The notes under the pieces: generated by a model
The model's database searches: none
The model's input: only the letters and a program-made list of their open reading frames with translations
What the model was told of the DNA's origin: nothing
Made by a program: the position numbers and the translations under genes
Part shown: piece after piece, positions 12,499-39,027 of the stretch
Layout of the letters: each line of letters opens with the position of its first letter
Numbering within the stretch: position 1 is the first letter of the stretch
Assembly: GCA_023139575.1 (NCBI GenBank)
Contig: JAGLNJ010000035.1
Location: forward strand, 1-41,786
Length of the DNA: 41,786 nt
Origin: Candidatus Omnitrophota bacterium
GTDB taxonomy: Bacteria > Omnitrophota > Gorgyraeia > Zapsychrales > JANLHA01
Direction of reading: 5' to 3'

Positions 12499-13616
12499 AC
12501 TCTGTGTTCCTCCCTCTGGGCTTGTTTTGGTTTTGTCCATATACAATAAAAATTATTGCACACATGATTTTGAATCCGCATATGTTCAAACGCCTTGTAC
12601 CAGTCATTATTCTGACAATTAGGTTTAGGGAACACCGGATGTTTAAATGGCGTCAATTCTATACAGAAAAAAGCCTCACTGGAGCCCACAAATTTTATCC
12701 GGCTCTGTTGAACCAGCCTTTGCAGCCATTTGCGATCCCAATTATTATAGGTCTTATCATTTTCAAAAAACTTTAAATCATCTTCATCCATGAGGCATAA
12801 GTAAGGTGTTGGCAAATTACTAATGACGCCATAATGCCTGTCATCCAATGGCCTCACTGACAACCCTGACAAAGTAACATTCATATCCTTCTCATCAAAA
12901 GCTTCTAAAAGGGCCGGGTGACCATAACGAAAAGCAATATCAACCAACTGATCATTCTCAACCTCGCCTCCTCGTTTTAAAACATCTAATTCATGTGATT
13001 CAAGAATCTTATCCGTATCTACCCGGGGATGAGCCGCAGCCAAACAAATCCCCTTTCCCGCAATTAATTTCACAGCATTAAATAATGATGCATTTCCGAA
13101 AATCGTATCGGAAGGAGTCATAACAAATAACGACCGCTCCCGCACAACCTTTCTCACATGTTGCAAAAGGGCTTGATAGGTAATATCTTCCGTATCTTCT
13201 AAAGGTATAATATTCAGCTTCACATACTTATTTAACTTCTCAAGAATCTCTTGATAAAATTCAGAAGAGAAAGACTGATCACCTTTCTTGGTATATAGAT
13301 CCCACTCTATAATGTAATCTTCTGAATATAAAGCCGGGATATTACTTTCCTGCAAAAGTGACGGGACAACATAAGAAAAAAACAAATCAACGTAACTTCC
13401 CCAGGCCACTGTAATAAAACGCATTCTTTTGTTATCCCAGCTCACTCTCTCCCCTTTTAAGAAACACTTCTTTTCAATTTTCTTCTGCCGGGAATCCTTC
13501 ATTTGATCAATCTTTAGCCGGACAAATTCACGGTTAAAATAGTAACAAAAAATCTCTTTCACGCCCCCTTCAGATAATCTCTGTTTAAAATATTTCGTAA
13601 AATCTCGCGTGATCAT
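12492..13616 (-). CDS. Protein of unknown function, paralogous to its upstream neighbour
   Basis: 374 residues from the ATG at 13614-13616, which overlaps the upstream stop as ATGA and has a GGAGAAG ribosome binding site; an upstream alternative start exists at 13640. I do not recognise the family. It shares a run of features with the gene at 13613-14689: a WGSYVDLFF segment followed by VVPSLLQESNIPAL, an LYTKK strand, a PSDTIFGN motif, ENDQLVDIAFRYGH, VISNLP, and NNWDRKWLQRLV. It has no signal peptide and no membrane segment, so it is probably cytoplasmic. The alternating hydrophobic strands and the conserved D/N loop could fit a nucleotide-sugar-dependent glycosyltransferase, but no standard motif supports that. 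Confidence 0.7.
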   Translation of the reverse strand: MITRDFTKYFKQRLSEGGVKEIFCYYFNREFVRLKIDQMKDSRQKKIEKKCFLKGERVSWDNKRMRFITVAWGSYVDLFFSYVVPSLLQESNIPALYSEDYIIEWDLYTKKGDQSFSSEFYQEILEKLNKYVKLNIIPLEDTEDITYQALLQHVRKVVRERSLFVMTPSDTIFGNASLFNAVKLIAGKGICLAAAHPRVDTDKILESHELDVLKRGGEVENDQLVDIAFRYGHPALLEAFDEKDMNVTLSGLSVRPLDDRHYGVISNLPTPYLCLMDEDDLKFFENDKTYNNWDRKWLQRLVQQSRIKFVGSSEAFFCIELTPFKHPVFPKPNCQNNDWYKAFEHMRIQNHVCNNFYCIWTKPKQAQREEHRVC

Positions 13617-14689
13617 CGTTTTCTTCTCCACATAAAACAAAATGCATTACACAAGTAATTTTGCAGGAGCCTGTTTTTTGGTTCTAAAAAAACATCGTTA
13701 TATAGCAGATTATCTTTTAAGGGTGTTTGTTTTTCCTGATCGGATGTTATATCAACAAAAAAGGTCATATCACTTGACCCGGAAGCCTTGTAACGGTTGC
13801 TCTTAATCAGCTTCCTTAACCACAATCTATCCCACTGATTAATAATTCTACAAGATTTAAAAAACTGCAGATCACTCTTGTGAAAATCAGCAACCATTAC
13901 GGGAGGAAGATTATTAATTACCGAATACAGATTGTCATCAATTTGACGGATTGCTATTCCCGCGTGAGAAATGTTCTTACTAACATCATCAAAACAGCTG
14001 CGAAAAGAATGATGCCCGTAGGAAAAAAGCAGATCAACCAATTCATCATTCTCAATGGTCCGTTTGTATTCCTTCAAATCATTAAATTCCTGGGATTGAC
14101 GAATGGCTTCCCGGCTCATACGCGCGTAGCTGGTGCCCAAACACATATTATTTTTTCCTTCAATCATCTTAATGGCATGGTAAAGCGATTTATTCCCGAA
14201 GAAATTATCCGGCATGGCCTGAACACTAATGGCATTCTCATCTAGGCATTTCCCAATATGCTTTATTAACGCCGTGACTAAAATATCATTCTTGTCAACC
14301 GTTGACATATCATATTCTACGAAAGATATACTCATACAATTCGTCACTTGGGGTAATGCCGATAAACGTTGTTCAATTTGCCCTTTATGTTCTGCCTTTT
14401 TTGTATAAATGACTAATTCGACCTTATAACCTTCACTGACTAAACGGGGAATATTCCCCTCTTGCATAAAACCCGGAATGATATAATCAAAAAACATTTC
14501 GATATAATCACCCCAAACCGGGCTAAAAAGATTAATTTTTTTCTTTCCTTGATAAATCGATCGTTTTGAATCATCAATAATAGCCCGGTCAAAAACATGA
14601 TAGATTTTTGAAAGACACTTCGCCTTAAACAATCTATATCTACGGGGAAGCCCTTTTGTGATTTTTGTTAAAAACTTATTATTTTTCAT
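13613..14689 (-). CDS. Protein of unknown function, paralogous to its downstream neighbour
   Basis: 358 residues from the ATG at 14687-14689; a GTG at 14698 could add three residues. Family not recognised. It parallels the next gene through WGDYIEMFFDYIIPGFMQEGNIP, VIYTKK, MPDNFFGN, IENDELVDLLFSYGHH, VINNLP and NQWDRLWLRKL, so a duplication is clear. It lacks membrane helices and signal peptide. The conserved PDN/PSD-x-FGN motif in the middle is a candidate active or ligand site. It follows an 88-base spacer with a hairpin repeat and overlaps the next gene by 4 bases. Position between a radical SAM gene and two membrane GT-C-like genes suggests a role in glycan assembly, but no function is assigned. 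Confidence 0.7.
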   Translation of the reverse strand: MKNNKFLTKITKGLPRRYRLFKAKCLSKIYHVFDRAIIDDSKRSIYQGKKKINLFSPVWGDYIEMFFDYIIPGFMQEGNIPRLVSEGYKVELVIYTKKAEHKGQIEQRLSALPQVTNCMSISFVEYDMSTVDKNDILVTALIKHIGKCLDENAISVQAMPDNFFGNKSLYHAIKMIEGKNNMCLGTSYARMSREAIRQSQEFNDLKEYKRTIENDELVDLLFSYGHHSFRSCFDDVSKNISHAGIAIRQIDDNLYSVINNLPPVMVADFHKSDLQFFKSCRIINQWDRLWLRKLIKSNRYKASGSSDMTFFVDITSDQEKQTPLKDNLLYNDVFLEPKNRLLQNYLCNAFCFMWRRKR

Positions 14690-14722
14690 AACAAACACTT
14701 AAAGTGGTTAACATTTAGCACC

Positions 14723-16187: not shown

Positions 16188-17406
16188 TTTTCAACTCCAA
16201 TTCATATGAGAACATTTCAGGATACTTTTTAAGAAATTTTAACCCGATTGGGGTGCCAATACCATAAGACCAGTTCCCCGGTTCAAATAACTGGAAATAT
16301 TTATCTAACAGCTCCCTGTCAGCATCACTGAACTCAAATGTTCCATCCAGCCGAGCCATCATCTCTTGCGTCACATCCAGAATATCCTCGGAGCTGTTAT
16401 TTTCCGGAGAAATATTCTGTTCTGCGAATTTCCAACTGTTTAAATATTCCCTTTCCCTCTTGTCTTTTAAAAAAAATCGATAGGGGATGATTTTTTGTGT
16501 TTCTTTCTGACGAATGATTTTTGGTATATATACATTCGTCTTCCCCCACGGAATATGGCCGACGGGCATAAAATTTGTTCCGATTCGCGGCACATCAAAA
16601 ATAATGGCAACATCACTCATGCCGGACGTCGTCCCTAAATGAAATCGGGCTTTTGCCGACAAGTAGATATCCAAGAAGGCGCACTGATCTTCAGAAACGG
16701 AATAATCAATGATTTTTGGATCACCTAAATCAATTTTCTTTTGAACAACAGAACCCAGCCTGATCACATATCCCCCCTGTTGTGAAATATATTGACAGGC
16801 TGCCGTATAGGAGTCGATATCAGCGTTTCTGGAATCATGATAACGCCAATCTTTTTCCGGAAACATTGTACTAAGATACGCATTGTCGCGGACAAAGAGT
16901 GAAACAAACCAGTCCTTTTCTCCAATACCTAACTTTCTTAAATAGGACTGCCCCCTTAGTTCTTCCTCTGGTGTAAATGTCAACACCTTATGAGAATCTT
17001 GATAGACGGGATATTCATTGCTCCTCATGGGCAAATCCTGAAAAAATGCCGTCTTTTGAAACAACGGCAGACAAATTTGCCACATTTTAAATAGAAAATC
17101 ATTCTCAACAATTCGTAAATGGATTTTAAACATCTTCAGCAGCTGCTGATTACATGGTTTCCCGGAGATGAAAATATAAAAATGTTTATCCGGAATCTCC
17201 CCGCTTTGTAGACGTCGAAGGAATAAGTCAGTATTGAGAGCCAAATGACCTAAACGGTGAAAATAAATATTGCCGATTTTAATTGAACAAAAAGGTTTGA
17301 GACAAAATAATACCGCAATGACGACACATCCCATTCCTTTAATCAAAATTTGAGGAATATTTTTGACCAAACTTTTCATACTGCGCGTCACCCATTTACC
17401 ATGCAT
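16180..17406 (-). CDS. TIGR04372-type glycosyltransferase
   Basis: Up to 408 residues. The start at 17406 overlaps the upstream gene by 19 bases; an ATG at 17377-17379 leaves an 8-base gap and would drop 9 residues, and neither has a clear ribosome binding site. Features recalled for the TIGR04372 family are present: SRNADIDSYTAACQYISQQG followed by GGYVIRLGS, then IIDYSVSEDQCAFLDIYL, KARFHLGTTSGMSD and FDVPRIGTNFMPVGH. A hydrophobic N-terminal stretch (MGCVVIAVLFCLKPF) suggests membrane association. The family is predicted to transfer sugars in surface-polysaccharide loci; donor and acceptor are unknown. It sits between a TIM-barrel isomerase and a radical SAM gene. Confidence 0.75.
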   Translation of the reverse strand: MHGKWVTRSMKSLVKNIPQILIKGMGCVVIAVLFCLKPFCSIKIGNIYFHRLGHLALNTDLFLRRLQSGEIPDKHFYIFISGKPCNQQLLKMFKIHLRIVENDFLFKMWQICLPLFQKTAFFQDLPMRSNEYPVYQDSHKVLTFTPEEELRGQSYLRKLGIGEKDWFVSLFVRDNAYLSTMFPEKDWRYHDSRNADIDSYTAACQYISQQGGYVIRLGSVVQKKIDLGDPKIIDYSVSEDQCAFLDIYLSAKARFHLGTTSGMSDVAIIFDVPRIGTNFMPVGHIPWGKTNVYIPKIIRQKETQKIIPYRFFLKDKREREYLNSWKFAEQNISPENNSSEDILDVTQEMMARLDGTFEFSDADRELLDKYFQLFEPGNWSYGIGTPIGLKFLKKYPEMFSYELELKNA

Positions 17407-18050
17407 TTATCAAAAAACTCTTTCGCCGCGGCAAACTCTTCACAGGTTTGATACCCAACAGACGCCTCCGAAACAATAAAACCTGAATATCCAATTTGCT
17501 TTAACAAACCTAAAAGATATCGATTATGTTCAGGTGTATGATGGATCGGCGTATGCCACATGTTCGAACCAAAAGTGTAACCGGTTAAGTGAAAATATCC
17601 CGCTCGTTTAAGGATAGGAATAAAAGCCTCTTCGTAAAAACCGCAGCATTCCATTTGCGCATGCTCTAAATCAAAACAGAACCCAATGTCAAACCTTTGA
17701 ACAAATTTGACGATTTCGTTCGCCCCAATCGTATTCTCAATATACATAGGAACGGCATGCTTTTGAAAAGCCTTTACAATACCTTCCCATTCATCCAACC
17801 AATAAATATTATGCAACACCGCCGCTTCAGGTTTTAATAATGCAACTAAATCATACATTTCAGAAAGACCCGTCCCATCGTTAGGAGCATGAACTGTATA
17901 GCGCAAAGGAAATTGTTTGCAGGTTTTAATAATACCCGGAACATCCTCAAGGATATCCTTTGACAAATACAATTCAACGGCCTTGATATCCGCTTTAACG
18001 ATATCAGTTAATATTCTTTCTTCCGGAGCACATTTTGCTGTTAAGATCAT
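17388..18050 (-). CDS. Sugar isomerase/epimerase-like TIM barrel (short)
   Basis: 220 residues of the xylose-isomerase-like TIM-barrel family. Strands carrying likely metal or substrate residues are VELYLS, YTVHAPNDG, VLHNIYW, MYIENTIG, IGFCFDLEHAQ, FHLTGY and IVSEASVG; the Glu, Asp, His and Glu residues at their ends fit the family metal site. It is shorter than the usual 260-300 residues and shorter than the operon's other barrel at 6021-6929, so loops or a terminal helix are reduced. It lies 18 bases after a radical SAM gene. The substrate is unknown; it may epimerise or isomerise an intermediate made by the dehydratase and ThDP enzymes upstream. Confidence 0.7.
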   Translation of the reverse strand: MILTAKCAPEERILTDIVKADIKAVELYLSKDILEDVPGIIKTCKQFPLRYTVHAPNDGTGLSEMYDLVALLKPEAAVLHNIYWLDEWEGIVKAFQKHAVPMYIENTIGANEIVKFVQRFDIGFCFDLEHAQMECCGFYEEAFIPILKRAGYFHLTGYTFGSNMWHTPIHHTPEHNRYLLGLLKQIGYSGFIVSEASVGYQTCEEFAAAKEFFDKCMVNG

Positions 18051-18068: not shown

Positions 18069-19367
18069 TTATATAAAATTATGATGCTCTGGAGGATTCA
18101 TAACATCCCACAAAAACTTATTAATATAATCCTGCCGGCAACCGACCGTACAATCACAATGGACATCAACATTATCAACAACATCTTTCTGAACGTTCCA
18201 ATAATGATCGCCTTTAATGATGTCATAATATGATTCTTTATGAATGTCTCCCATACAGAAACGCTCCTTACCAAAGAATGGTCCGCAAGGATACATTCTT
18301 CCATTTCCGCTAATTTGCCCTAAAAAGGGAGTTCCGTAACAAATATCATATTTACGCACACCGCCTTTATAAACATCCGTATCACCCAAGATATTTATCT
18401 TGTTCCACTTAACCTGAACATAATAATCATCCGTCGTGAAGGTCTCCGCTTTTTTCAGGTCTTCGGTCGCCCTGGCATATTGTGTGTGATCAATGCCAAT
18501 CTCTTTATATTCGGTATCAGAACATTGTTTAATTTGCAGATAATCAAAACCCACTTCTCGTCCCAGTTCAGCCAACTTGATAATTTGATCAAAATTTTCC
18601 GGGATCAAAACCATCTGGATCCCTAACGTACAGGCATAATTATTTTCTTTACGTACCTTAACTAACGCTTTCATCTTTTCAACAAGCAGATCAAAATTAT
18701 CCCCCTTACTTTGATGAATCTTTGAGAATCCTTCCCTGTCACCGGCACTTAAATTAATGCGCAAAAACGTTAAATGCTTAAGCATATCATCCGCGCGGTC
18801 CAGATCAAGACGCACCCCATTGGTAGCAATGCCGATATCAATGTTGTTTTGTTTTCCAATAACGATCGCGTCATACATCGCCGGATTAAGCGTTGGTTCT
18901 CCATCGCCAATAAAACCGATACTGCGGACCTCTAACCGCCCACAATCTTCAATGAAACGCAATAAGGCATCAGGCTGAATCATGGCCCCTTTCTGCATTC
19001 CTTGAGTCACTCCGATACAATAGACACAGGCAATATTACAAAACTTGGTTAAACCCATATCAATATGGATCGGGGCAATCCGTTCTCCGCGCTTCCAGGC
19101 ATTTATGCGTTCAAGATGATAAAGCATCTTATGTCCATCTAGACGGAATTTTTCTTTCTTATTTTTATACGTATGCCCTGTATATTGATTAGGAAGTTTC
19201 TCGCCCTGCCCGAGGGTTTCTTGCAACTTATCTAATTGCGAGCGATCAACTATTTTCTTGCCAGTGCGAAGTTTATGTCCCGCATGTTTGACAATACTTA
19301 TATCTTCCGGGATTTCTGTCACATTGTTTTCATTAACATCTGTTGCGCTTTTTTCTTTACTAGTCAT
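18069..19367 (-). CDS. Radical SAM enzyme with SPASM-like C-terminal cysteines
   Basis: 432 residues with an AAGGAG ribosome binding site. The radical SAM motif is FCNIACVYC with C110, C114 and C117, followed by GFIGDGEPTLNP (the usual GGEP region) and IGIATNGVRLD. The C-terminal part carries further cysteines (DICYGTP, MYPCGPFFG, RFCMGD, CDCTVGC), consistent with a SPASM or twitch domain that binds extra iron-sulphur clusters. SPASM enzymes include peptide-modifying enzymes and dehydrogenases such as BtrN, which oxidises an aminocyclitol. No precursor peptide gene was seen nearby, so a small-molecule or sugar substrate is more likely here. The first 95 residues are hydrophilic and unrecognised. 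It lies 22 bases after the dehydratase gene. Confidence 0.82.
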   Translation of the reverse strand: MTSKEKSATDVNENNVTEIPEDISIVKHAGHKLRTGKKIVDRSQLDKLQETLGQGEKLPNQYTGHTYKNKKEKFRLDGHKMLYHLERINAWKRGERIAPIHIDMGLTKFCNIACVYCIGVTQGMQKGAMIQPDALLRFIEDCGRLEVRSIGFIGDGEPTLNPAMYDAIVIGKQNNIDIGIATNGVRLDLDRADDMLKHLTFLRINLSAGDREGFSKIHQSKGDNFDLLVEKMKALVKVRKENNYACTLGIQMVLIPENFDQIIKLAELGREVGFDYLQIKQCSDTEYKEIGIDHTQYARATEDLKKAETFTTDDYYVQVKWNKINILGDTDVYKGGVRKYDICYGTPFLGQISGNGRMYPCGPFFGKERFCMGDIHKESYYDIIKGDHYWNVQKDVVDNVDVHCDCTVGCRQDYINKFLWDVMNPPEHHNFI

Positions 19368-19389: not shown

Positions 19390-20949
19390 TTATAAAGGCA
19401 GTTTTCCTGCTGTCCAAATTTGAAACTGTCTCTGCTCCAACAGTTCTGATTTTGATTGTTGACCTGAAGAGATCTTTAACATCAAAGAAAGCAATTCATC
19501 TCCTAATCCATCCAAAGAGACATCTTGATCCATTAAAAGCCCGGCATTAAAATCCAGGTCATCATTAAGTTTTTGAAATAATTCTGTTCGTGTCGCAACT
19601 TTGATCACCGGACAAATAGCATTTCCTGTCGGCGTCCCTTGCCCTGTTGAGAAAAGAACCATGTTCGCCCCGGACGCAACCATCCCTGTAACAGATTCCA
19701 AATCCCCCCCGGGGCCCTGCATAATCGTTAACCCTTGCTTAGTTACAGGATCGGCATAGTCTATCACATCTTCAATAACCGTAGATCCCCCCTTCAAAAC
19801 AGCCCCAAGGCTTTTCATATACTTATTAATCAATCCCCCTTCAATATTCTTGGGAACTAAATTTCCATCTAACGTTAAATGCAACCTTCTCGCTAAATCT
19901 TCATACCAATCCAGGGCTTGCTGGAATTTTTGTGCGATTTCTAAGCTGCGAAAACGAGACAGCAACATAGAATACGTCCCCAGCATCTCGGGAATTTCAC
20001 TTAAGATGACTCGCCCTTTCCCCCAGACCACTTTATCAACAACACGGCCTATCAAAGGATTTGCTGTAATACCAGAAAATGTGTCTGATGCGCCGCATTC
20101 TGTTCCGACAATAAGTTTTTCTAATAAGCATGCTTGCCGGTCAATATTGGAAACTTTTTTTAACCGGGAAAGAATGATCTCACAGGCTTTTTGTCGCGTC
20201 TTGGCAACGCCTCCTGATTCCTCAACGGTCATCCAATCAATAGGTTTCACACTGTCATGCTCAAACTTTGCCAAATACGAAGAAACTTTTTCGTAATTGG
20301 TTTGTTCACAGCCTAAATCTAAAATAAAACAGCCACACACATTAGGATGCCGGACATACCCTTCAATCACTTTCAGCAACCGATCGATAGATATTGTAGA
20401 GTCACATCCGCATCCTTCAGTATGCGATAAAGCCAGAACACCGTCTAAATTTGAATAGTCATCAAGAGTTGTCTTTTTATGTATTAACTTCTCAATCTGC
20501 TGTGCTGTTTGGCTCGCACACATTGATGTGGGGATAACAAGATAAAAATTCCTCGTTCCCACACGTCCATCAGAGCGAATATATCCTTGAAATGTTTTTT
20601 GAATATATTTCTCTATATATTCAGTTTTCCGGGGATCCTGAAAGTCTTCCTCAAAACTATCCGGGATTTCAGGAACGACATTCATCCCGTTCACCAATGC
20701 CCCTTTTTGAATTCCTTTAGATTTCCCAAAAGCATAGCCATACTGATAAACATACTCACCCTCAGGAGAGTCACAAACAGCAAAACGTTGCCCTTTTTTG
20801 ATGTCTTGCTGAATCTCGATCATGTCATTCCGAAATGACAAAAGGCTTCCTTTAAGGATCTCCTGCTTAGCAACGGCAACCGTGTCATTTTGCTCGTCAA
20901 TAATAATACTCAATTGATTTGCGTCTTCTTTTTTTAAAGTCGTACTCAT
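19390..20949 (-). CDS. Altronate/galactarate dehydratase family enzyme (UxaA-like)
   Basis: 519 residues. An N-terminal SAF-type domain (about 10-95) precedes the UxaA domain. Signatures: IRSDGRVGTRNFYLVIPTSMC near 122-143, HTEGCGCDSTIS, GTECGASDTFSGITANPLIG, IMQGPGGDLESVTGMVASGAN, LFSTGQGTPTGNAICPVIKV and a C-terminal SGQQSKSE. Length and layout match full two-domain altronate dehydratases, which dehydrate aldonates to 2-keto-3-deoxy acids with an Fe/Mn site. Catabolic partners (UxaB, KdgK, KdgA) are absent, so a role inside a biosynthetic route, making a keto-deoxy sugar acid, is inferred. Only 2 bases separate it from the upstream cupin-ThDP gene, implying tight coupling. Substrate not established. 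Confidence 0.85.
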   Translation of the reverse strand: MSTTLKKEDANQLSIIIDEQNDTVAVAKQEILKGSLLSFRNDMIEIQQDIKKGQRFAVCDSPEGEYVYQYGYAFGKSKGIQKGALVNGMNVVPEIPDSFEEDFQDPRKTEYIEKYIQKTFQGYIRSDGRVGTRNFYLVIPTSMCASQTAQQIEKLIHKKTTLDDYSNLDGVLALSHTEGCGCDSTISIDRLLKVIEGYVRHPNVCGCFILDLGCEQTNYEKVSSYLAKFEHDSVKPIDWMTVEESGGVAKTRQKACEIILSRLKKVSNIDRQACLLEKLIVGTECGASDTFSGITANPLIGRVVDKVVWGKGRVILSEIPEMLGTYSMLLSRFRSLEIAQKFQQALDWYEDLARRLHLTLDGNLVPKNIEGGLINKYMKSLGAVLKGGSTVIEDVIDYADPVTKQGLTIMQGPGGDLESVTGMVASGANMVLFSTGQGTPTGNAICPVIKVATRTELFQKLNDDLDFNAGLLMDQDVSLDGLGDELLSLMLKISSGQQSKSELLEQRQFQIWTAGKLPL

Positions 20950-20951
20950 TA

Positions 20952-23522
20952 TTATTTCAACGGTTCCACAGGATTAATAATCATGTTATCTGAAAATTCT
21001 TTGCGATCTAAGAAAGGATAGAGATCTTCTAAAGGTTTAGAAATAATTGTTCCGTCAGGTTTCTTTAACGAAGACACCCGTGGCATTAAAGGTTGATCCG
21101 GCGGCATCATAATTTCACAAAGAAATGGCCCGGGTTCCTGAAGGATCGCGTTTATTTTGTCATGCAGATCATCATGATTAACAATACGGTCCGCTTTCAA
21201 CCCATAGGCCCGTGCTAACTTCACCATATCCGGTGTCCCCACCCCGCTCGAGGGATCAGACCCCACAAAACGGCCGAAATGATTCTGCTGCATTAACTTA
21301 ATAGTAAGGTATCCCTGATTGTTTAAAACAAAAAGAATAATGGGCAACTGATATTGAACTAGGGTTTGCAATTCCTGAATATTCATCTGTAAACCGCCAT
21401 CACCACTAATACATATAGTTTTACGTAATCCCCCGCCGTAACATGCGCCAATAGCTCCCGGCAGCCCATATCCCATCGACGCATGGCCACTGGACGTGAA
21501 AAGGCGTTGCCCTTTCTTCACATGAAATGTCTGCATCGTACACGTAAAACTTGTCCCCATATCCGTTACAACAATTGCCTTCTCCCTTAACTTCCGGGAT
21601 AAGACATCAACGAAATAAAATGAATTCACATAACCTTTTTGGCCCTTATATTCCGGCAGAACAATGGGATACTTCTTTTTCCATCCTTGACATCTCTTTA
21701 CCCATTCCGCGACATCAATTGAAAAATCATTTGCATCGATTCTTTCTATCAGATGAACGATAAAGTCTTTTGCCTTCATCTTTATTGGTAAATCCGGCTT
21801 TACCGATTCTTTTTTCAACTCAGCATGATCAACATCAACAACAATACGCTTTGCCTCGCGGGCAAAAGTTTTAAAATTGTACCCAACCTGAGGCACCGAC
21901 ATCCGCGAACCAATAATCAGCAACAAATCAGAATTCTGAACCGTAAAATTACCTGCCCGACTACCCATAATCCCGCTGCGTCCGATATAAAGGTCATGAT
22001 CCGTCGGGATTAAATCACTGGCTGTCCAGGAAGAAATAACCGGCACGCCTAATTTCTCAACAAGCTGAATAAATTCTTTTTCTGCCTTTGATAAACGCAC
22101 GCCATATCCACAAATCAATACAGGACGCTCAGCCTGCTTTAACATGTTCAAACATTCATCAATATGAGGTTCTTTATTCTTTTCTCCGCGATCAGGATAT
22201 TCTCTTTGGGCCTCAAAAGGGGTCAACTCATCAACTCGCACCAATTGACTTTGCACATCTAAGGGGATATCCAACCAAACCGGCCCGGGCCGGCCGGTCG
22301 CAGCCAGATAAATCGCCTTTTCTAAATGATATCTAATTGTCTCCGGCACTGTAACAGTAACGGCATATTTGGTAACAGGCTTCATCAGGTTGACAATGTC
22401 CGATTCCTGAATACCGAACTGTCGCAAACCTGTTCCATCTAACAACGTATTTGTTGTCACTTGTCCGGATATAAAAATAGACGGTATAGAATCAATCCAT
22501 GCCCCACAAACACCGGTTAAAGCGTTTGTCCCTCCGGGGCCGGAAGTCACTAAAGCGCAGCCTGGTTTCCCTGATATTCGCGCGTAACCTTCCGCAGCCA
22601 TTGCCGCCGCTTGCTCATGATAAACGGCAACGTAATTCAATTTTTCGTTTTTCCCTACCGCGTCAACCAAATGCATCGCCCCTCCACCAGATACCGCGAA
22701 AATATCGCGGATGCCCAACTCCTGAATTCTTGAAAAAACATAATCCGCAACTCGCGACACTCTTTTTTCCCTTTCTATAATTAAAAAAACTACGCCTCTT
22801 TGATCTTTTCTTTTAACTTCCCTTCGAAAAGTCCCATACGACATGATGCCCCCAACTTCCAAGAAAGAATATTCTTGAAACATTCTAGGCTCTTGGGTAA
22901 TCACGGATATCAATGCGTCATCTGACGGCCGATAGTCTTTGAGCGGCCCTCGAATAACGGTAAAGGTACAATCAAAAAATTTCTCCTGGATGGCCTCCCC
23001 TTCCCCGGGAATTCTTAATTTCAAACACGCCTCTGGATCCTGCACCATATTGTCTTTGCCTTCATAGGATTTTCCTGCCCGTCCATACGCATCTTTTAGC
23101 CGAACTAAATCTGTTTTATGTGGAGGTGATTCAATCTCCATAACCCAAATTCCGTTCTCGGATTGAGGACTAACTGGTAATGGATTAAAGGCCTCCGTGC
23201 TATGAAAAGTATTTTTCTCGATACACACGCCATCCATTGCTTTCAAAGTTATATCACCCTCCAACTGATGGAACACGGCTTGTCCGGATAATAAAATCAA
23301 GGATGTCCTTTTTTTCGGATGGCAATGCATGGATGTCTTGCGCTTTCGGACAATGTGAAGAATCCAAATAGCAACGTGTTCATTCTCAAAAGCGAGATAT
23401 TCATATCCCCAAGGTTTTTTGACGATGACCTTCTCATAATCACAAGGTTCTGACGCCAAGAGCTGTTTTGAATCCCTCGCGATGTCTCCATCAAATTCCT
23501 GCTCGGAAACTTTATAAATCAT
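20952..23522 (-). CDS. Cupin fused to acetolactate-synthase-like ThDP enzyme
   Basis: 856 residues, against 550-600 for ordinary acetolactate synthases. Residues about 30-140 form a cupin resembling mannose-6-phosphate isomerase C-terminal domains: PWGYEY at 37-42, MHCHPKK with H66 and H68, and H107. Residues about 140-250 link to a complete ThDP enzyme (253-830): YHEQAAAMAAEGYAR with catalytic E303, TSGPGGTNALTG at 326-337, a central Rossmann domain with IGRSGIMG, and the ThDP-binding GDGG (707-710) to N735. Known relatives in sugar pathways, such as YerE, transfer an acetyl unit from pyruvate to a keto-sugar. Here the cupin may bind a sugar substrate in cis. The open frame is continuous, so the fusion is real in this sequence. 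FAD dependence cannot be judged. Confidence 0.88.
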   Translation of the reverse strand: MIYKVSEQEFDGDIARDSKQLLASEPCDYEKVIVKKPWGYEYLAFENEHVAIWILHIVRKRKTSMHCHPKKRTSLILLSGQAVFHQLEGDITLKAMDGVCIEKNTFHSTEAFNPLPVSPQSENGIWVMEIESPPHKTDLVRLKDAYGRAGKSYEGKDNMVQDPEACLKLRIPGEGEAIQEKFFDCTFTVIRGPLKDYRPSDDALISVITQEPRMFQEYSFLEVGGIMSYGTFRREVKRKDQRGVVFLIIEREKRVSRVADYVFSRIQELGIRDIFAVSGGGAMHLVDAVGKNEKLNYVAVYHEQAAAMAAEGYARISGKPGCALVTSGPGGTNALTGVCGAWIDSIPSIFISGQVTTNTLLDGTGLRQFGIQESDIVNLMKPVTKYAVTVTVPETIRYHLEKAIYLAATGRPGPVWLDIPLDVQSQLVRVDELTPFEAQREYPDRGEKNKEPHIDECLNMLKQAERPVLICGYGVRLSKAEKEFIQLVEKLGVPVISSWTASDLIPTDHDLYIGRSGIMGSRAGNFTVQNSDLLLIIGSRMSVPQVGYNFKTFAREAKRIVVDVDHAELKKESVKPDLPIKMKAKDFIVHLIERIDANDFSIDVAEWVKRCQGWKKKYPIVLPEYKGQKGYVNSFYFVDVLSRKLREKAIVVTDMGTSFTCTMQTFHVKKGQRLFTSSGHASMGYGLPGAIGACYGGGLRKTICISGDGGLQMNIQELQTLVQYQLPIILFVLNNQGYLTIKLMQQNHFGRFVGSDPSSGVGTPDMVKLARAYGLKADRIVNHDDLHDKINAILQEPGPFLCEIMMPPDQPLMPRVSSLKKPDGTIISKPLEDLYPFLDRKEFSDNMIINPVEPLK

Positions 23523-23544: not shown

Positions 23545-24057
23545 TTAACTCTTATTTAAAAGTTCCAACACGGCTTTCATAAAATCACCATTATTTCGAT
23601 AATGCGGAGCCGTAACAAGGTTTCCATCAACAACAACATCTTCTTCCAAATATTCTGCTCCCGCATTCCTTACATCATCAGCGGTTGAAATATATGCTGT
23701 TGCCTTTTTTCCTTTCATGATCCCCGCTGATATGCAAAGCCATGGGCCATGACAAATAGCCGCGACAATTTTACCGGCATCATACATGTCTTTGATAAAT
23801 TGAAGCACTTCTTTACGAAGGCGCAATCTATCTGGCGCTTCAAAACCGCCAGGCAAAATAACTAAATCAAAATTTTTAACGTCTAAATCATTAGTGTCCA
23901 TCGTCACACGAGCAGGAACACCGTATTTTCCAAATACCGCCATTTTATCCGGTGTCGCGACCTCAACACGAATTCCTTCTTCAAGTAATCGATAGTAGGG
24001 ATATGTGAACTCTTCATCCTGAAAATTTTGCGCAGTAATAATAACAGCTCGTTTCAT
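23545..24057 (-). CDS. DJ-1/PfpI family protein
   Basis: 170 residues, the normal length for PfpI-like proteins. AQNFQDEEFTYP has the conserved acidic residues E15/E16; VILPGGFEAPDRLR follows; the nucleophile elbow is AAICHGPW with C102 and H103; and GAEYLEEDVVVDGNLVTAP closes the fold. A strong AAGGAGGAG ribosome binding site precedes it. Family members are proposed glyoxalases, deglycases, chaperones or amidohydrolases acting on reactive carbonyls. In an operon full of keto-sugar and ThDP chemistry, detoxifying or processing a reactive aldehyde or ketone is a fair guess, not evidence. It lies 22 bases before the cupin-ThDP gene and 119 bases after the transketolase subunit gene. Confidence 0.85.
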   Translation of the reverse strand: MKRAVIITAQNFQDEEFTYPYYRLLEEGIRVEVATPDKMAVFGKYGVPARVTMDTNDLDVKNFDLVILPGGFEAPDRLRLRKEVLQFIKDMYDAGKIVAAICHGPWLCISAGIMKGKKATAYISTADDVRNAGAEYLEEDVVVDGNLVTAPHYRNNGDFMKAVLELLNKS

Positions 24058-24176: not shown

Positions 24177-24668
24177 TCAAACCCTCAAATACCCCGCCTG
24201 CTCACTACAGAGCCAATCTTTCACTAAAACATCAAACGATTTCTCTGCAGAATAGGGATCATACGTTTTCATATTAATCAATTCCATCAATCGAATATCA
24301 TTTGTGCCGCAGCAATGAGAGGGGCCCAAGAATTTAAAATAATCATTCGCCCCGGTTCCAATGAATTTTACGTTAAGATTCTGCAGAATTACATCATTGC
24401 GCACTTGTTCAATCGCCCGATAAACCAAAAAATTAATGATGGAAAAAACAACCGGTATCAAACCTGTTGTGCTCATTCCCGCCGCAATACCAATTGTTCC
24501 CTGCTCCATAATCCCGCAATTAATGATCCGCTTTGGAAACTCTTCTTTCAACTGATTAATAACACCAAAACCCGTATCGCAAATTAAAAGATGATACCTC
24601 TCATCTTCCCGAAAATACGTCACAATTTGGTCAAGCACTTCCCTTCTATAATCTTGTTCAATTTCCAT
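24177..24668 (-). CDS. Transketolase-like pyrimidine-domain subunit (lacks C-terminal domain)
   Basis: 163 residues from the ATG at 24666-24668 (the frame is open to 24728, inside the upstream gene). The Pyr-type ThDP domain is recognisable: LLICDTGFGV, RIINCGIMEQGTIGIAAGMSTTG with E55 of the conserved E-Q pair that activates the cofactor, and FIGTGANDYFKFLGPSHCCGTNDIRLM. Split transketolase C-subunits are normally about 300 residues; this one stops right after the Pyr domain, so the third domain is absent. The 119 bases downstream contain no continuation in any frame, so the short form is probably natural. It overlaps the N-subunit gene by 11 bases and should pair with it to form the active site. 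Substrates unknown; two-carbon ketol transfer is the family reaction. Confidence 0.82.
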   Translation of the reverse strand: MEIEQDYRREVLDQIVTYFREDERYHLLICDTGFGVINQLKEEFPKRIINCGIMEQGTIGIAAGMSTTGLIPVVFSIINFLVYRAIEQVRNDVILQNLNVKFIGTGANDYFKFLGPSHCCGTNDIRLMELINMKTYDPYSAEKSFDVLVKDWLCSEQAGYLRV

Positions 24669-25479
24669 AAGTCGCCCCCCCTTCCAGTTCCTCTGGCGTT
24701 GGTAAGCGGAAATGAAACTTGGCAACATTTTCCATGCACTTCAATCCATATCCTTTTATTGTAGAAGCAATGATCGCTTTGGGCTGATCTCCGGAAGACA
24801 CTTTACTTTTCTCAATACACGAGGCAAGCACTTCGGCATCGTGTCCGGGACAAACAATGGGGCTCAATCCAAAACCTTCCAATTTTTTAATCAAATCCTC
24901 TTCCTCAATATCTAAAACATTATCAATAAAATCCATCGCTTGCAGACGGTTTTTATCAACAATAATAATCAAATGATCTAATGTATATTTTGCCGCGAAC
25001 TGAAGCGCCTCCCAACACGACCCTTCCTGAAATTCTCCATCACCAATAATACAATACGTATATGTATCTTTTTCCTGACATTTTGCACCATAAGCCATTC
25101 CCACAGCGATGGGCAAACCATGGCCTAAGGAACCGCACCCCGCCTCAATACCATATTCCAGTCGTCGATCCATACAACCCAGTAATGTGCTTTCGGGCGT
25201 ATAGAACCCCTCCCATTCTTCTTTCGGCAGCATGCCGATATCCGCTAAGATGGCATAAAGTCCATAACACCCGTGGGCCTTGGAAAAAACCAGCCGATCC
25301 CTATCTTCCCAATAGGGATTTTCAGGGTCAATGGACATGCAGTCATAATATAAAGCCACGAGAATATCAATACATGACATTGAAGGGGCAATATGACCCG
25401 CTTTGTTCGCAACAGAAACTCTTAACACCTCATCACGAATAAAATTCGCCTTAGCTTTTAATTCTTTAACCTGAATCAT
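24658..25479 (-). CDS. Transketolase-like N-terminal (PP-domain) subunit
   Basis: 273 residues, usual size for a separate transketolase N-subunit. Signatures: KAGHIAPSMS with H29, FSKAHG with H69, CGSLGHGLPIAVGMAYG at 115-131, and the ThDP/Mg motif GDGEFQEGSCWEA (146-158) to N177 in VDKNRLQ. It binds the diphosphate of ThDP and works with the Pyr-domain protein encoded next. Comparable split transketolases are known in secondary-metabolite clusters (for example the rifamycin pair) and in amino-sugar routes. The gene starts 2 bases after an aminotransferase gene, which fits shared synthesis of an amino- or chain-altered sugar. Central pentose metabolism is a less likely role because of the surrounding genes. 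Confidence 0.87.
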   Translation of the reverse strand: MIQVKELKAKANFIRDEVLRVSVANKAGHIAPSMSCIDILVALYYDCMSIDPENPYWEDRDRLVFSKAHGCYGLYAILADIGMLPKEEWEGFYTPESTLLGCMDRRLEYGIEAGCGSLGHGLPIAVGMAYGAKCQEKDTYTYCIIGDGEFQEGSCWEALQFAAKYTLDHLIIIVDKNRLQAMDFIDNVLDIEEEDLIKKLEGFGLSPIVCPGHDAEVLASCIEKSKVSSGDQPKAIIASTIKGYGLKCMENVAKFHFRLPTPEELEGGATYGN

Positions 25480-26638: not shown

Positions 26639-27739
26639 CTACGAATAAAATTCTTTTATGCATTCAACCACATACTTCAACTGCTCGACAGTCAGGCCGT
26701 GATATATAGGCAGACTCATTATCTTTTCAGTCTGGCCATCGGTTTGCAAAAATATCACCTTTTCATAACCCAACTCTTTGGCCGCCGGTTGCATGTGTAT
26801 CGGAACAGGATAATGAATCTTTGTATCAACACCCTTTTCAGTTAAAAAAGCCATCAATTCTTCCCGACGTTCAACTTGCACAACAAACGTATGATAAACA
26901 CTTTTTTCATATGGTTTATCAATTGGAAAATGCACTTGCGAAATATTGGCAAGCGAATCCTGATAAAACTTGGCATTTTCTCTACGGATTCTGGTCCACT
27001 CTTCGATATGATCCATTTTAATCAGAAGCACCGCCGCCTGAATGGAATCCAGCCGGGAATTATTACTCCAAACAACACATTCATTACGGCCTTTAAACCC
27101 GTTATTGCGGTAAATGCGTAGCCGCTCATAATATTCTTTATTATTTGTCGTGACAATACCTCCGTCACCGCAGGCGTTAAGGGTCTTCAACGGATGAAGG
27201 CTATAGCATCCCATATCACCGATAGACCCCACCCTTTTGCCGTGATATTCAGCACAAACCGCCTGCGCGCAGTCCTCCACCACAAAAAGTTTATGCTTCT
27301 TGGCTATATCCATAATGGAACCCATATCCGCCGGATGGCCCGTTAAATGGACCGGCATGATGGCCTTTGTCCGGGGCGTGATGGCAGCCTCAATCAAATC
27401 GGGATCGATATTATAATCCTCCCTGATGTCAACAAAAACCGGCTTGGCCCCGACCAGAACGATGCTTGTTGCTGTCGTGGCAAAAGAATTCGGCGCCGTG
27501 ATCACTTCATCCCCGGGCCCGGCACCCAAGACCTTAAGAGCCAGCATAAGCGCGTCCGTACCTGAATTTAAGCCCACCGCATATCTGGTGTGACAAAGTT
27601 CGGCAAAACGCCGTTCAAATTCCTCAACGTGCGGGCCCAGGATAAATTGGCCGGTATCCAAAACCTGCTCCATCGCTTCCAACAGCTCACCTTTAATATC
27701 CGCATGTTGATCGATTAGATTTATATAGGGAACTTTCAT
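26639..27739 (-). CDS. DegT/DnrJ/EryC1/StrS family aminotransferase (standard active site)
   Basis: 366 residues with canonical motifs: LNSGTDALMLAL (58-69), VHLTGHPADM, VVEDCAQAVCAEY (153-165), and LHPLKTLNACGDGGIV with the PLP lysine at K185. C-terminal KIHYPVPIHMQPA is typical of sugar aminotransferases acting at C3 or C4 of keto-sugar nucleotides. The start overlaps the stop of the upstream SDR gene as ATGA, so oxidation or epimerisation by that SDR and transamination by this enzyme may be consecutive steps. A 53-base spacer separates it from the second aminotransferase. No catalytic replacement is seen. Regiospecificity cannot be told from the sequence. Confidence 0.9.
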   Translation of the reverse strand: MKVPYINLIDQHADIKGELLEAMEQVLDTGQFILGPHVEEFERRFAELCHTRYAVGLNSGTDALMLALKVLGAGPGDEVITAPNSFATTATSIVLVGAKPVFVDIREDYNIDPDLIEAAITPRTKAIMPVHLTGHPADMGSIMDIAKKHKLFVVEDCAQAVCAEYHGKRVGSIGDMGCYSLHPLKTLNACGDGGIVTTNNKEYYERLRIYRNNGFKGRNECVVWSNNSRLDSIQAAVLLIKMDHIEEWTRIRRENAKFYQDSLANISQVHFPIDKPYEKSVYHTFVVQVERREELMAFLTEKGVDTKIHYPVPIHMQPAAKELGYEKVIFLQTDGQTEKIMSLPIYHGLTVEQLKYVVECIKEFYS

Positions 27740-28737
27740 TGCAGATTGATCTCCTGCATGGTTTTTATATTGTAATATCGATTATTGCCCATGGGATCAG
27801 GAATCTTATTCGCATTAAAAGCGTCTTTCAAATCTTTGATCGCGTCTTCAATACTGCGCCGCGGTTCAAATCCCAATTCACTCTTTATTTTTTGTGATGA
27901 AACGTGGTAAGAGCGGTTATCATCTGAGGTAACTGTTTTGATCAAAACATCGGTTCCCAAGGTCTTTTTAACCATCCGCGCGATATCGCTCACCGTGTGA
28001 TTTTCATAACCGGCGTTATAGATCTTTTTATGTATTGCTGCGTCAGAATATTCCAGCATTTTGATATAAAGATCGGTAATGTCCCCGATGTGAATATTCG
28101 GCCGGGTTTGCGCCCCGCCGAAAACAGTAATTTCTCCCTTATTAACGGCATGATTCGTCAAAATATTGACCGTCAAATCCAGACGCAGGCGCGGAGAATA
28201 ACCACAAACAGTAGCCGGGCGCAATGTCACAACGATAAAATCATTGGTGGCCTCTTTTTGCAGAACCTCTTCGCATAAGGCCTTATATTTCGAGTAATCC
28301 GTCAAAGGCTTCAAAGGCAAGTCCTCTGTCACATCGGTCGTATCTTTTATGCCATAGACGCTGGAACTGGACGCATAAATAAACCGTTTCACTTTATTCT
28401 TTTTCGAAATATCCACCAGCGAAATGAAGGCGTCATAGTTAATGGTCTTTCCCAAGTCGGGATTCAGCTCAAAGCTCGGATCATTAGAGATACAGGCGAG
28501 GTGAATGACCGCGTCGGACCCGGGGATTTCTTTCTCTAAAAGAGCAACATCACGAATATCTCCCTTGATCTGGACCAAGTTTGGATGTTCTTTGACTTCG
28601 TCCAGGACATCTTCGCCATACATATACAGATCCAAAACCTTCACGCAATAGCCGGCCTTTAACAACTTGGGCACCAGAATGGCCCCGACATAACCGGCGC
28701 CACCGGTAATAAAGACGTTTTTCAACTTCTCATTCAT
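27736..28737 (-). CDS. NAD-dependent epimerase/dehydratase (extended SDR)
   Basis: 333 residues. The nucleotide-binding motif is GGAGYVG near 12-18; the catalytic region is ASSSSVYG followed by Y-x-x-x-K as YSKYK. RPATVCGYSPRLRLD and a PNIHIGDITDLYI segment match extended SDRs that act on nucleotide sugars. A GGAAAG-type ribosome binding site precedes the ATG. It could epimerise, dehydrate or reduce an NDP-sugar. It lies 13 bases after the nucleotidyltransferase-kinase fusion gene and overlaps the next aminotransferase gene by 4 bases, so it probably acts on the activated sugar made by the fusion protein. That order of steps is inference. Confidence 0.88.
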   Translation of the reverse strand: MNEKLKNVFITGGAGYVGAILVPKLLKAGYCVKVLDLYMYGEDVLDEVKEHPNLVQIKGDIRDVALLEKEIPGSDAVIHLACISNDPSFELNPDLGKTINYDAFISLVDISKKNKVKRFIYASSSSVYGIKDTTDVTEDLPLKPLTDYSKYKALCEEVLQKEATNDFIVVTLRPATVCGYSPRLRLDLTVNILTNHAVNKGEITVFGGAQTRPNIHIGDITDLYIKMLEYSDAAIHKKIYNAGYENHTVSDIARMVKKTLGTDVLIKTVTSDDNRSYHVSSQKIKSELGFEPRRSIEDAIKDLKDAFNANKIPDPMGNNRYYNIKTMQEINLQ

Positions 28738-28750
28738 GCCATAATCCTTT

Positions 28751-30283
28751 CTATTTGAATAAACGTGTAATAAATTTTGTTAAATCGACATTTTTAACCG
28801 GCTCGCGGTTACAAACAATCTGCACGGCAAGTGAACCAACGGCATTACCGATAAAAGAAATCAAATCCTGGGGCAAACCGGCCGCGAAACAGGGCGAGAC
28901 ATAGGCAAAAAACGCGTCTCCCGCACCGACGGCATCAATGACCCGGTAGGAAAAGGCCGGTGTTTCATGATAGCCGCTCTCCCTGGAATAACATAATGAG
29001 CCGTATGGGCCGCGGGTGGCGATCATTTGATCACAGCCGAAATTCTGATATACATTTTTCAGAAGTTGCCGTATCTCACTGTATTTGTCATGCGCCGCCA
29101 GCCGCAGTTCTCTTTCATCAATACACACACAATTTGCGGACGGATATTTTGTAATTAAATTAAACCCGGAGTTTGCGCTGTTTGTCTGAACATTCAAGGC
29201 CATGTATTTCGCCTTGGAACAAATGAGATTTATTATTTTTGGCGTTAACAGGCCATGGCCAAAATCAGAAACAATAACAGCATCATAATCCTTAATAACT
29301 TTTCGTAACTGAGCCATAATATCTGACTCAATTTCCTTTGATATATAGTTATCCTCCATATAACAAATCTCAAAAAGCTTTCTATCCTGCACATTGCTGA
29401 CAAAACGCCTTTTAATAATTGTGCTTGTGTCCGGACGATAAAAAAATGCCGGATTAATATTTTCGCTGAGCTTTTGACGGATGAATTTTTCATGCGAATC
29501 CTTCTCCCCCAAAACCGTGATAAGATCCACCTGCCCGCAAACACTGGCAACATTATTGGCTGTCGCCAACGTCCCTCCGGCAAAGCACTCTTCGGATAAA
29601 TACCGGTTTACAACCAGGTGTTCCTTGGATGATTTTCCCATAGCGCAGCAATAGTGATACTGATCAATGATCGCGTCACCGATAACAAGCACTTTTAATT
29701 TCTTCAAAGAATCCAGTGCGTCGACGACATAATCAATGGGGTATTTTTTCTTGAGCCCCCTTAAATACTTCAACGTGCGCGGCGGGTAGACATCAAAAGA
29801 GCTGTTGATCAATTTGGAGGAGCTGAATGTGATGTCTTCGGTAAAAACCAATTTTCCTCCCACAGACTTGATCGCTTCTTCTTCATCATAGATCTTTCCG
29901 GTGACATCCTTCTCCTTTTGCTTATAGTCCGATCCCTTAACATAAAAGTCCGGCCTGATTTCTTTGATGCAATCAATGGCTGTCGGTGAATCAATAATAC
30001 CGACGTAATCAACAATCTCTAACGACGCCAGTGTTTCTGCCCTGAGGAGCTCATTAAATATCGGCCGGCCCGGCCCACGCTTCACATGCTTATCTTTTGT
30101 GATCGTGACAACCAGGACGTCGCCCTCTTTTTTTGCCAAATTAAAATGACGGATATGGCCTAAATGCACAAGGTCAAAGACCCCGTGGCAGTGAACTACT
30201 TTGCCGCCTTTTCTTTTGATACCGGCAACCGTCTCAGCTAATTCATCAATTTGTTTGATTTTTAAGATAATCTGCTCTTCCAT
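28751..30283 (-). CDS. Bifunctional RfaE-type nucleotidyltransferase - PfkB-type sugar kinase
   Basis: 510 residues from the ATG at 30281-30283, with AAAGGAG at good spacing; a GTG at 30286 is too near that site. Residues about 28-165 are a cytidylyltransferase-like domain: HGVFDLVHLGH with the HxGH motif, KRGPGRP, VKGSDY and FSSSKLIN. Residues about 195-505 are a PfkB/ribokinase-fold kinase: GDAIIDQY, FAGGTLATANNVA, SDFGHGLL and the catalytic VGAGDAF (D456). The family pair phosphorylates a sugar at C1 and attaches a nucleotide, as HldE does for heptose; here the domains are in the reverse order of E. coli HldE. No GmhA or GmhB homologue is in the window, so the sugar need not be heptose. 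An 85-base repeat-bearing spacer lies upstream. Confidence 0.87.
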   Translation of the reverse strand: MEEQIILKIKQIDELAETVAGIKRKGGKVVHCHGVFDLVHLGHIRHFNLAKKEGDVLVVTITKDKHVKRGPGRPIFNELLRAETLASLEIVDYVGIIDSPTAIDCIKEIRPDFYVKGSDYKQKEKDVTGKIYDEEEAIKSVGGKLVFTEDITFSSSKLINSSFDVYPPRTLKYLRGLKKKYPIDYVVDALDSLKKLKVLVIGDAIIDQYHYCCAMGKSSKEHLVVNRYLSEECFAGGTLATANNVASVCGQVDLITVLGEKDSHEKFIRQKLSENINPAFFYRPDTSTIIKRRFVSNVQDRKLFEICYMEDNYISKEIESDIMAQLRKVIKDYDAVIVSDFGHGLLTPKIINLICSKAKYMALNVQTNSANSGFNLITKYPSANCVCIDERELRLAAHDKYSEIRQLLKNVYQNFGCDQMIATRGPYGSLCYSRESGYHETPAFSYRVIDAVGAGDAFFAYVSPCFAAGLPQDLISFIGNAVGSLAVQIVCNREPVKNVDLTKFITRLFK

Positions 30284-30299
30284 CACGGCTCCTTTAATA

Positions 30300-30371: not shown

Positions 30372-31373
30372 TTATTTTGACAAAAATTTAAACCAATCTT
30401 CCGTCGCTACTTTAATATTATCCGGCGTCCATACCGGAGCTTCTTTCCAATAATCAATATGATTGAGCATCTCCTGAACGCCCTGCTCAAAGGAAACCTT
30501 TGCCTGCCAATTTAATCCCTTCTTGATCTTTCTGACGTCCGCCCAGGTGCAATCCGGTTCTCCGGGACGTTTGGGAATATAAACTTTTTCACCTTCCAAT
30601 AATGACACAAGCTTATTGACAGTCTGCGGCTTCCCTGAGCCCACATTAAATACCTCTTGTGACACGCCGGAAAGAGCTGCCGTAAAAAAGGCGTCCGCCA
30701 CATCCGTGACAAACGTGAAATCTCTTGTCTGCTCCCCGTCCCCGACTATCGTGTAGGGCTGATCGTTAAGTTTTTGCGCCAGGAACACACCAAAGACCGC
30801 TCCATATGTACCTGATGTCCGCGATCGGGGCCCGTACACATTAAAAAGGCGCAATGAAATAACCGGCAGGTCATAAACCTGCCCCCAATGAAGGGCCGTT
30901 TGCTCCCCTAAATATTTCGTCAAAGCATATGGATATTGCGGACTGGTTGCCACATCTTCGCCGGTAGGATAACACCCCTCCGGGGGGATACCGTAGCATG
31001 ACGATGAAGCCGTATATAAAAACTTTTTCACCCCGGCCAAACGTGAGGCCTCCAGGACATTCATCGTTCCCAGAACATTTGCCGTGTAGTATCCTCTCGG
31101 GTTCACAATAGAAGGAACAATATCCGCCAATGCCGCCATATGAAAAACAATATCCACATCTTTAAAATGAGACTGTATCCCCTCAAAATCCATAATGTCA
31201 GCCTCAACAAATTCAAAATTTTTCTCTCCCTTGATATGGGCCAAATTCTGCAGACGTCCCGTAGAGAGATTGTCCAACACCGTCACATGACAGCCCTCTT
31301 CAAGCAGACGGTCCACCAGATGACTTCCGATAAAACCCGCTCCACCCGTTACAATAACTTTTTGGTTATCCAT
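30372..31373 (-). CDS. NAD-dependent epimerase (GalE/WbpP-like extended SDR)
   Basis: 333 residues. GGAGFIGSHL (10-19), the TASSSCYG catalytic serine region (121-128), and Y149-x-x-x-K153 in YALTKYLGE show a classical extended SDR. RLFNVYGPRSRTSGTYGAV and the DFTFVTDVADA segment match UDP-sugar 4-epimerases of the GalE/WbpP/Gne group. It should interconvert C4 epimers of a UDP-hexose or UDP-N-acetylhexosamine. An AGGATG ribosome binding site precedes the ATG. It stands between two repeat-bearing spacers (84 and 85 bases), so it may have been added to the operon as a unit. Substrate specificity is not decided. Confidence 0.87.
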   Translation of the reverse strand: MDNQKVIVTGGAGFIGSHLVDRLLEEGCHVTVLDNLSTGRLQNLAHIKGEKNFEFVEADIMDFEGIQSHFKDVDIVFHMAALADIVPSIVNPRGYYTANVLGTMNVLEASRLAGVKKFLYTASSSCYGIPPEGCYPTGEDVATSPQYPYALTKYLGEQTALHWGQVYDLPVISLRLFNVYGPRSRTSGTYGAVFGVFLAQKLNDQPYTIVGDGEQTRDFTFVTDVADAFFTAALSGVSQEVFNVGSGKPQTVNKLVSLLEGEKVYIPKRPGEPDCTWADVRKIKKGLNWQAKVSFEQGVQEMLNHIDYWKEAPVWTPDNIKVATEDWFKFLSK

Positions 31374-39026: not shown

Positions 39027-39027
39027 T

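Follow-up and report, generated by a model that had tools for sequence, protein, structure and literature searches.

The window analysed, comprising 41,786 nucleotides of a contig from a Candidatus Omnitrophota bacterium, contains an uninterrupted open reading frame of 856 codons with an ATG start at positions 20952–23522 of the minus strand; the plus-strand reading of the same positions includes many stops. The product, CupTPP (856 aa), is a cupin–ThDP fusion enzyme, delineated from the reading frame, Pfam matches and an alignment with 17 full-length relatives. A conserved cupin barrel with the motif KKPWGYEYL (residues 30–163; positions 23034–23435) was defined by alignment, structure model and Foldseek search. 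It is followed by a second, poorly conserved barrel-like part (residues 164–256; 22755–23033), apparent from the alignment and the model, and by a JanthE/YerE-like part belonging to the ThDP decarboxylase superfamily (residues 257–856; 20955–22754), assigned by Pfam, PDB search, tree and fold. Pfam domains TPP_enzyme_N, TPP_enzyme_M and TPP_enzyme_C match residues 257–361, 454–590 and 654–804, respectively (E ≤ 2.5e-33). The predicted metal ligands are the HxH residues of H66-C67-H68 (23319–23327) and, as the third, H107 (23202–23204). In the ThDP part, E303 (22614–22616) lies in an HEQ motif and corresponds to the catalytic Glu of ThDP enzymes, and GDG at residues 707–709 (21396–21404) starts the ThDP/Mg binding motif.

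H66, H68, H107, E303, GDG and N735 are unchanged across the 18 aligned full-length proteins. In the same alignment, 42% of the columns of barrel 30–163 are invariant, as compared with 38% in the ThDP half and 2% in residues 164–256; thus, the conserved barrel is kept as tightly as the catalytic half. The model of the full-length fusion has a pTM of 0.69. The original prediction, of a cupin with an HxH metal motif joined in one frame to a complete ThDP enzyme with catalytic Glu303 and a GDGG...N site, is borne out in each of these respects.

The neighbouring genes described next lie, like the fusion, on the minus strand. A gene for a DJ-1/PfpI family protein (23545–24057), its most constant partner, is separated from the fusion gene by 22 bp. 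On the other side, after a gap of 2 bp, lies a gene for a GD_AH-family sugar-acid dehydratase homologue (GDAH; 19390–20949), the proposed maker of a 2-keto acid donor, which is itself 22 bp from a gene for a radical SAM/SPASM protein (18069–19367) with 64–70% identical counterparts in the loci designated L006, L009, L017 and L024. Given these gaps, the four genes are likely to form one operon. The next gene encodes a xylose-isomerase-like TIM barrel protein (17388–18050; 49% identical in L006). The context is that of nucleotide-keto-sugar genes, with SDRs, aminotransferases and HldE in the window: an SDR nucleotide-sugar epimerase/dehydratase (27736–28737; a 69% identical copy in L066), an HldE-like heptose kinase/nucleotidyltransferase fusion (28751–30286) and a further SDR nucleotide-sugar enzyme (30372–31373; 62–67% identical in L007, L017 and L022). 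In the HldE-like protein, which has similar proteins in L007, L009 and L022, the nucleotidyltransferase part comes first (residues 20–160) and the kinase second (192–490), reversing the HldE order of model PRK11316.

A split transketolase pair (TktC short and TktN; 24177–25479, minus strand) is also present. It was dropped as a cassette member, as it was not found beside the fusion at other loci. Its second subunit (24177–24728; 183 aa) matches the pyrimidine-binding domain alone; the C-terminal domain of the intact partner in L063 (322 aa) is missing, with no space for it before the next gene, and the subunit could be a vestige or a truncated version. Elsewhere in the window, a DpnII-type restriction endonuclease and two DNA methylases, one of them a D12-class adenine methyltransferase (37306–39942), adjoin the sugar locus, and four successive minus-strand genes (8715–14698) encode proteins of 690, 656, 382 and 361 aa with no Pfam match.

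The N-terminal part did not reach the Pfam cut-offs for MannoseP_isomer (PF01050; 16.8 versus 23.6 bits) or Cupin_2 (PF07883; 15.5 versus 27.2 bits). However, the AlphaFold model of the first 256 residues is beta-rich (pLDDT 83.9, pTM 0.85), and Foldseek matched it to solved cupins, including KdgF and archaeal phosphomannose isomerases, at target-normalised TM-scores of about 0.78–0.80. As judged by the model, the domain has the double-stranded beta-helix fold of cupins. Two alignments revealed HxH of motif 1 and the His of motif 2 (H66, H68 and H107), whereas the Glu of motif 1 (HxHx3-4E) is absent and its position is occupied by an invariant T73; hence the metal site is predicted to be of a three-His type. 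Placement of the cupin in one solved family was abandoned, as phmmer, profile and Foldseek searches returned generic cupins only, many of them scoring alike. Of the proposed sugar-isomerase-type cupin, therefore, the cupin fold stands, while the family assignment falls short on the Pfam cut-offs and the missing Glu.

For the ThDP half, JanthE (8rph) is the top PDB match both by sequence (472.8 bits, the runner-up scoring 286.8) and by fold (target-normalised TM-score 0.88, as compared with about 0.83 for Arabidopsis AHAS), with 39% identity over about 590 residues. The active-site Pro and Tyr of JanthE are retained as P544 and Y548, and its Val, Tyr and Lys are replaced by I371, M519 and R815, on a residue matching in which the numbering of paper and chain differs by one, as deduced from the residue letters. 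JanthE has been classed as YerE-like, accepts simple ketones and has no known physiological substrate (PMC12188165).

The ThDP half had been described as acetolactate-synthase-like, which holds at the level of the superfamily only. It is true that its best NCBIfam family is TIGR00118, and a variant AHAS to which a cupin was added for regulation might be imagined from this match. Yet the score of 406 bits lies under the cut-off of 538.35 bits, and the same genome encodes a separate IlvB scoring 749 bits. The QW(Q/E) loop, present in IlvB of the same and related genomes, was absent from the fusion in a motif comparison, and in the tree the fusion ThDP half groups with JanthE, with IlvB in another clade. 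A regulated AHAS is thus highly improbable, and identity as acetolactate synthase, largely refuted by this evidence, was dropped. Together, the rank of JanthE, the missed TIGR00118 cut-off, the absent loop and the separate IlvB place the catalytic half with the YerE/JanthE kind, where kinship to YerE is judged via JanthE, and likeness to YerE and ErwE themselves is by description.

A scan of genome contigs revealed 22 loci, 17 of which include full-length fusions 58–69% identical to the window protein; as the scan requires exact short peptides, these counts are lower bounds. An assembly error, raised beforehand as what could undo the finding, and a chance fusion are both ruled out by these 17 proteins; the window genome itself is in 204 contigs and 89.6% complete. 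Record titles for the fusions name Omnitrophota, Planctomycetota (several groups), the Pseudomonadota families Nitrosomonadaceae and Rhodospirillaceae, Nitrospinaceae and Lentisphaerae, and the records also include BMS3Abin06, which we take to belong to Nitrospirota. The fusion architecture spans at least five named phyla, where it lies within clusters for sugar biosynthesis. A maximum-likelihood tree unites the 18 fusion ThDP halves in one clade (support 99/99), the inner branching of which does not follow host phylum, Nitrospinaceae being nested with Nitrosomonadaceae; this points to horizontal transfer or, for some metagenome bins, to errors of binning. Carriage on phages or plasmids was considered and dropped: phage records gave no match to the cupin, viral contigs no relative, and plasmids ordinary ThDP matches only, with no record spanning 80% of the query.

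The cupin alone was then used as a query against 1,321 genomes, namely 285 Omnitrophota genomes and, by profile searches, 398, 392 and 246 genomes around three other starting genomes. These scans are samples, in which strong matches (>115 bits) were found in 18 of the 1,321 genomes, four of the 18 being starting genomes. All 18 have a ThDP gene fused to the cupin or located within about 4.4 kb of it. Among the 285 Omnitrophota genomes, the cupin is fused to a JanthE-type decarboxylase and, in four genomes, to an E1-alpha-like ThDP subunit, with the E1-beta gene next to it. The E1-type assignment is illustrated by the relative in L056, which scores 52.3 bits against E1_dh (cut-off 22) and is followed by a gene with Transket_pyr and Transketolase_C. 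Stand-alone cupins adjoin E1-alpha/beta genes in L072/L090, L073/L089, L077, L078 and L087, and occur in like operons with DJ-1, HAD, sugar-acid dehydratase and heptose genes. In two further genomes (L085 and L086), the fusion partner of the cupin is an Fcl-like GDP-keto-sugar epimerase/reductase, and E1-alpha/beta genes lie close by. A cupin tree sets the decarboxylase-fused cupins apart from the others, though weakly (74/34).

The fusions of L060 and L084 carry a degenerate ThDP/Mg motif in their ThDP half (CEKKG and CEDRG, respectively), and each is accompanied on its contig by another ThDP enzyme of the same type that lacks the cupin (L060, 3900–6677 and 15523–17301; L084, 9663–14058), directly adjoining the fusion in L084. 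The arrangement looks as if catalytic and non-catalytic subunits had separated.

DJ-1/PfpI genes were found in 28 of 33 cupin loci, most of the others ending at contig edges. A sugar-acid dehydratase, either of the GD_AH family or an enolase-superfamily enzyme similar to gluconate/galactonate dehydratase, occurs in 14 of the 33 (~40%), beside both ThDP types. It was not found near the cupin in most Phycisphaerae loci or in the E1-fused Omnitrophota loci, and is therefore not obligatory. Recurring sugar genes are those for HldE, GmhA, HddA-like and HddC-like proteins and for GMD-like and Fcl-like SDRs; L077 combines HddA/HddC/GMD-like genes with the cupin. HAD phosphatases, NUDIX proteins, a methyltransferase and several radical SAM enzymes are further recurrent neighbours. 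In Phycisphaerae, the gene order is HldE, a gene of unknown function, GmhA, radical SAM, HAD, DJ-1, fusion, methyltransferase, radical SAM, SDR, two B12 radical SAM and HemN-like, with no obvious 4,6-dehydratase in the stretches examined.

The cassette of about a dozen genes in L013 (4538–20568), the order of which is shared by L011, L012, L015 and L016, encodes up to five radical SAM enzymes, including two of the B12 type, one KedN5-like (NCBIfam) and one HemN-like. Between HldE and GmhA lies a gene for a conserved 322-aa protein (L011, 6044–7009; 72–81% identical in L012–L015) that weakly resembles ArgZ-like and deoxyhypusine-synthase Rossmann domains.

C-branched sugars are known to be formed from keto-sugars by YerE-like decarboxylases and by E1-type alpha-KADH2 enzymes, with split-gene transketolases as further proposals, and ErwE prefers 4-hydroxy-2-oxo acids over pyruvate (PMC12247030). 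The analysis lends good support to the predicted YerE-like chemistry in a sugar-gene setting: JanthE is nearest in sequence and fold, the AHAS signatures are absent and the cupin is also paired with E1-alpha/beta, the other class of ThDP enzymes known to branch keto-sugars. The probable role of the fusion is the addition of carbon branches to unusual surface sugars.

Dehydratases of the GarD/UxaA type and of the enolase family make 2-keto-3-deoxy acids, which are 4-hydroxy-2-oxo acids. We propose, as a reading about evenly balanced between right and wrong, that the fusion is a bifunctional branched-sugar synthase with a dehydratase-made 2-keto acid as donor and an NDP-keto-sugar as acceptor, the cupin working on the acceptor or the product. 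Most likely, the donor would be a 2-keto-3-deoxy (4-hydroxy-2-oxo) sugar acid made by the dehydratase whose gene lies 2 bp downstream. The ThDP half would decarboxylate this acid to an acyl anion and add it, at the ketone group, to a nucleotide-activated keto-sugar that probably derives from a heptose or a deoxy-sugar, to give a C-branched tertiary alcohol, as with YerE and ErwE. The three-His cupin would bind, isomerise or epimerise the keto-sugar, and the fusion would hold the steps together. The analysis shows the anatomy of the fusion, its kinship with JanthE/YerE and the association of the cupin with ThDP enzymes and operon partners; substrates, product, cupin chemistry and any part played by DJ-1 are inferred.

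Whether the added unit has two carbons, as first supposed, depends on the donor. Pyruvate is one option, but the dehydratase in about 40% of the loci suggests a longer 4-hydroxy-2-oxo acid, such as ErwE uses. The enzyme might nonetheless carry out YerE-type branching with pyruvate to add a C2 acetyl unit, the dehydratase serving another step and the cupin having no catalytic function but a role in sugar binding or oligomerisation. Pyruvate is the donor for both YerE and the E1-type enzymes; the latter are reported to form C2 branches only, which counts against a long-chain donor (PMC12247030). Many loci also have no dehydratase, and the sub-threshold Pfam scores of the cupin and the loss of its motif-1 Glu would suit a passive domain. 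However, the degree of invariance of the first barrel and its intact three-His set exceed what a spacer needs, and the dehydratase recurs beside both ThDP types, so that pyruvate with a passive cupin is somewhat unlikely. As for the suggestion that the cupin holds or epimerises the substrate, action on the acceptor is in line with its fusion elsewhere to an Fcl-like keto-sugar epimerase/reductase; a catalytic role of the cupin is putative.

The Phycisphaerae neighbourhoods, made up mostly of radical SAM, B12 radical SAM, HemN-like, methyltransferase and SDR genes, could be read differently, with the enzyme joining two small molecules other than nucleotide sugars, for a lipid headgroup or a small natural product, and the sugar genes being incidental. 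The acceptance of simple ketones by JanthE, with its natural substrate unknown, would fit (PMC12188165). Yet the heptose genes for HldE and GmhA lie inside the Phycisphaerae cassette too, and both the cupin fusions to a GDP-keto-sugar enzyme in L085 and L086 and the HddA/HddC/GMD-like genes of L077 argue for sugars; such a small-molecule product is quite unlikely. The branched-sugar synthase is preferred. Its main weakness is twofold: some loci have no dehydratase, and many recurrent partners, the radical SAM and B12 radical SAM enzymes among them, are not accounted for. The lack of an obvious 4,6-dehydratase in the Phycisphaerae stretches examined also counts against it. A bolder extension would include them: the mobile cupin would mark undescribed surface-sugar systems in which a dehydratase supplies a 2-keto-3-deoxy acid, a ThDP enzyme of either superfamily moves the long polyhydroxyacyl chain of this acid onto an NDP-keto-heptose, the cupin catalyses a step on the acceptor, and the resulting C-branched sugars of at least ten carbons are modified by radical SAM enzymes. 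This extension is speculative and we think it unlikely.

ThDP enzymes for branched sugars are already known. In the open-licence literature, no description was found of a cupin–ThDP fusion, or of a cupin module common to two ThDP superfamilies and a keto-sugar reductase; the partnership of the cupin with ThDP (vitamin-B1) enzymes appears to be previously undescribed. ThDP enzymes accepting ketones are sought as makers of chiral tertiary alcohols, and several, including JanthE, are without a known natural substrate. Occurring with two unrelated ThDP superfamilies and a keto-sugar reductase, the cupin offers a genomic marker for such pathways. It ties possible donor-making dehydratase and acceptor-making heptose genes to ThDP branching, and its loci suggest that uncultured Omnitrophota, Planctomycetota and others contain sugars not yet known. 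It also makes the origin of long-chain donors directly testable.

Among known systems, the fusion is closest to JanthE of Janthinobacterium sp. HH01 (PDB 8rph/8rpi/8rpj), sharing, besides the identity and the Pro and Tyr given above, an identical domain order of the ThDP part; JanthE, however, lacks a cupin, has CDG rather than GDG as the ThDP motif, and carries K567 where the fusion has R815. Biosynthetic acetolactate synthase (IlvB) has the superfamily and domain order in common, and differs in the score and signature loop that the fusion lacks and in being encoded separately in the same genome. The cupin resembles KdgF and archaeal phosphomannose isomerase in fold and in weak PF01050 similarity, but lies under the Pfam cut-offs and is without the motif-1 Glu. 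E1-type alpha-KADH2 enzymes, such as KbDH-alpha/beta of kibdelomycin, are matched by the E1-alpha/beta pairs to which the cupin of relatives is fused or adjacent; they belong to an unrelated ThDP superfamily, whereas the window enzyme is a single-chain decarboxylase type. YerE (yersiniose A) and ErwE (erwiniose) are likewise ThDP decarboxylases encoded among nucleotide-sugar genes, and their proposed reaction is the transfer of an acyl anion to a keto-sugar, but the review that covers them makes no mention of a cupin (PMC12247030).
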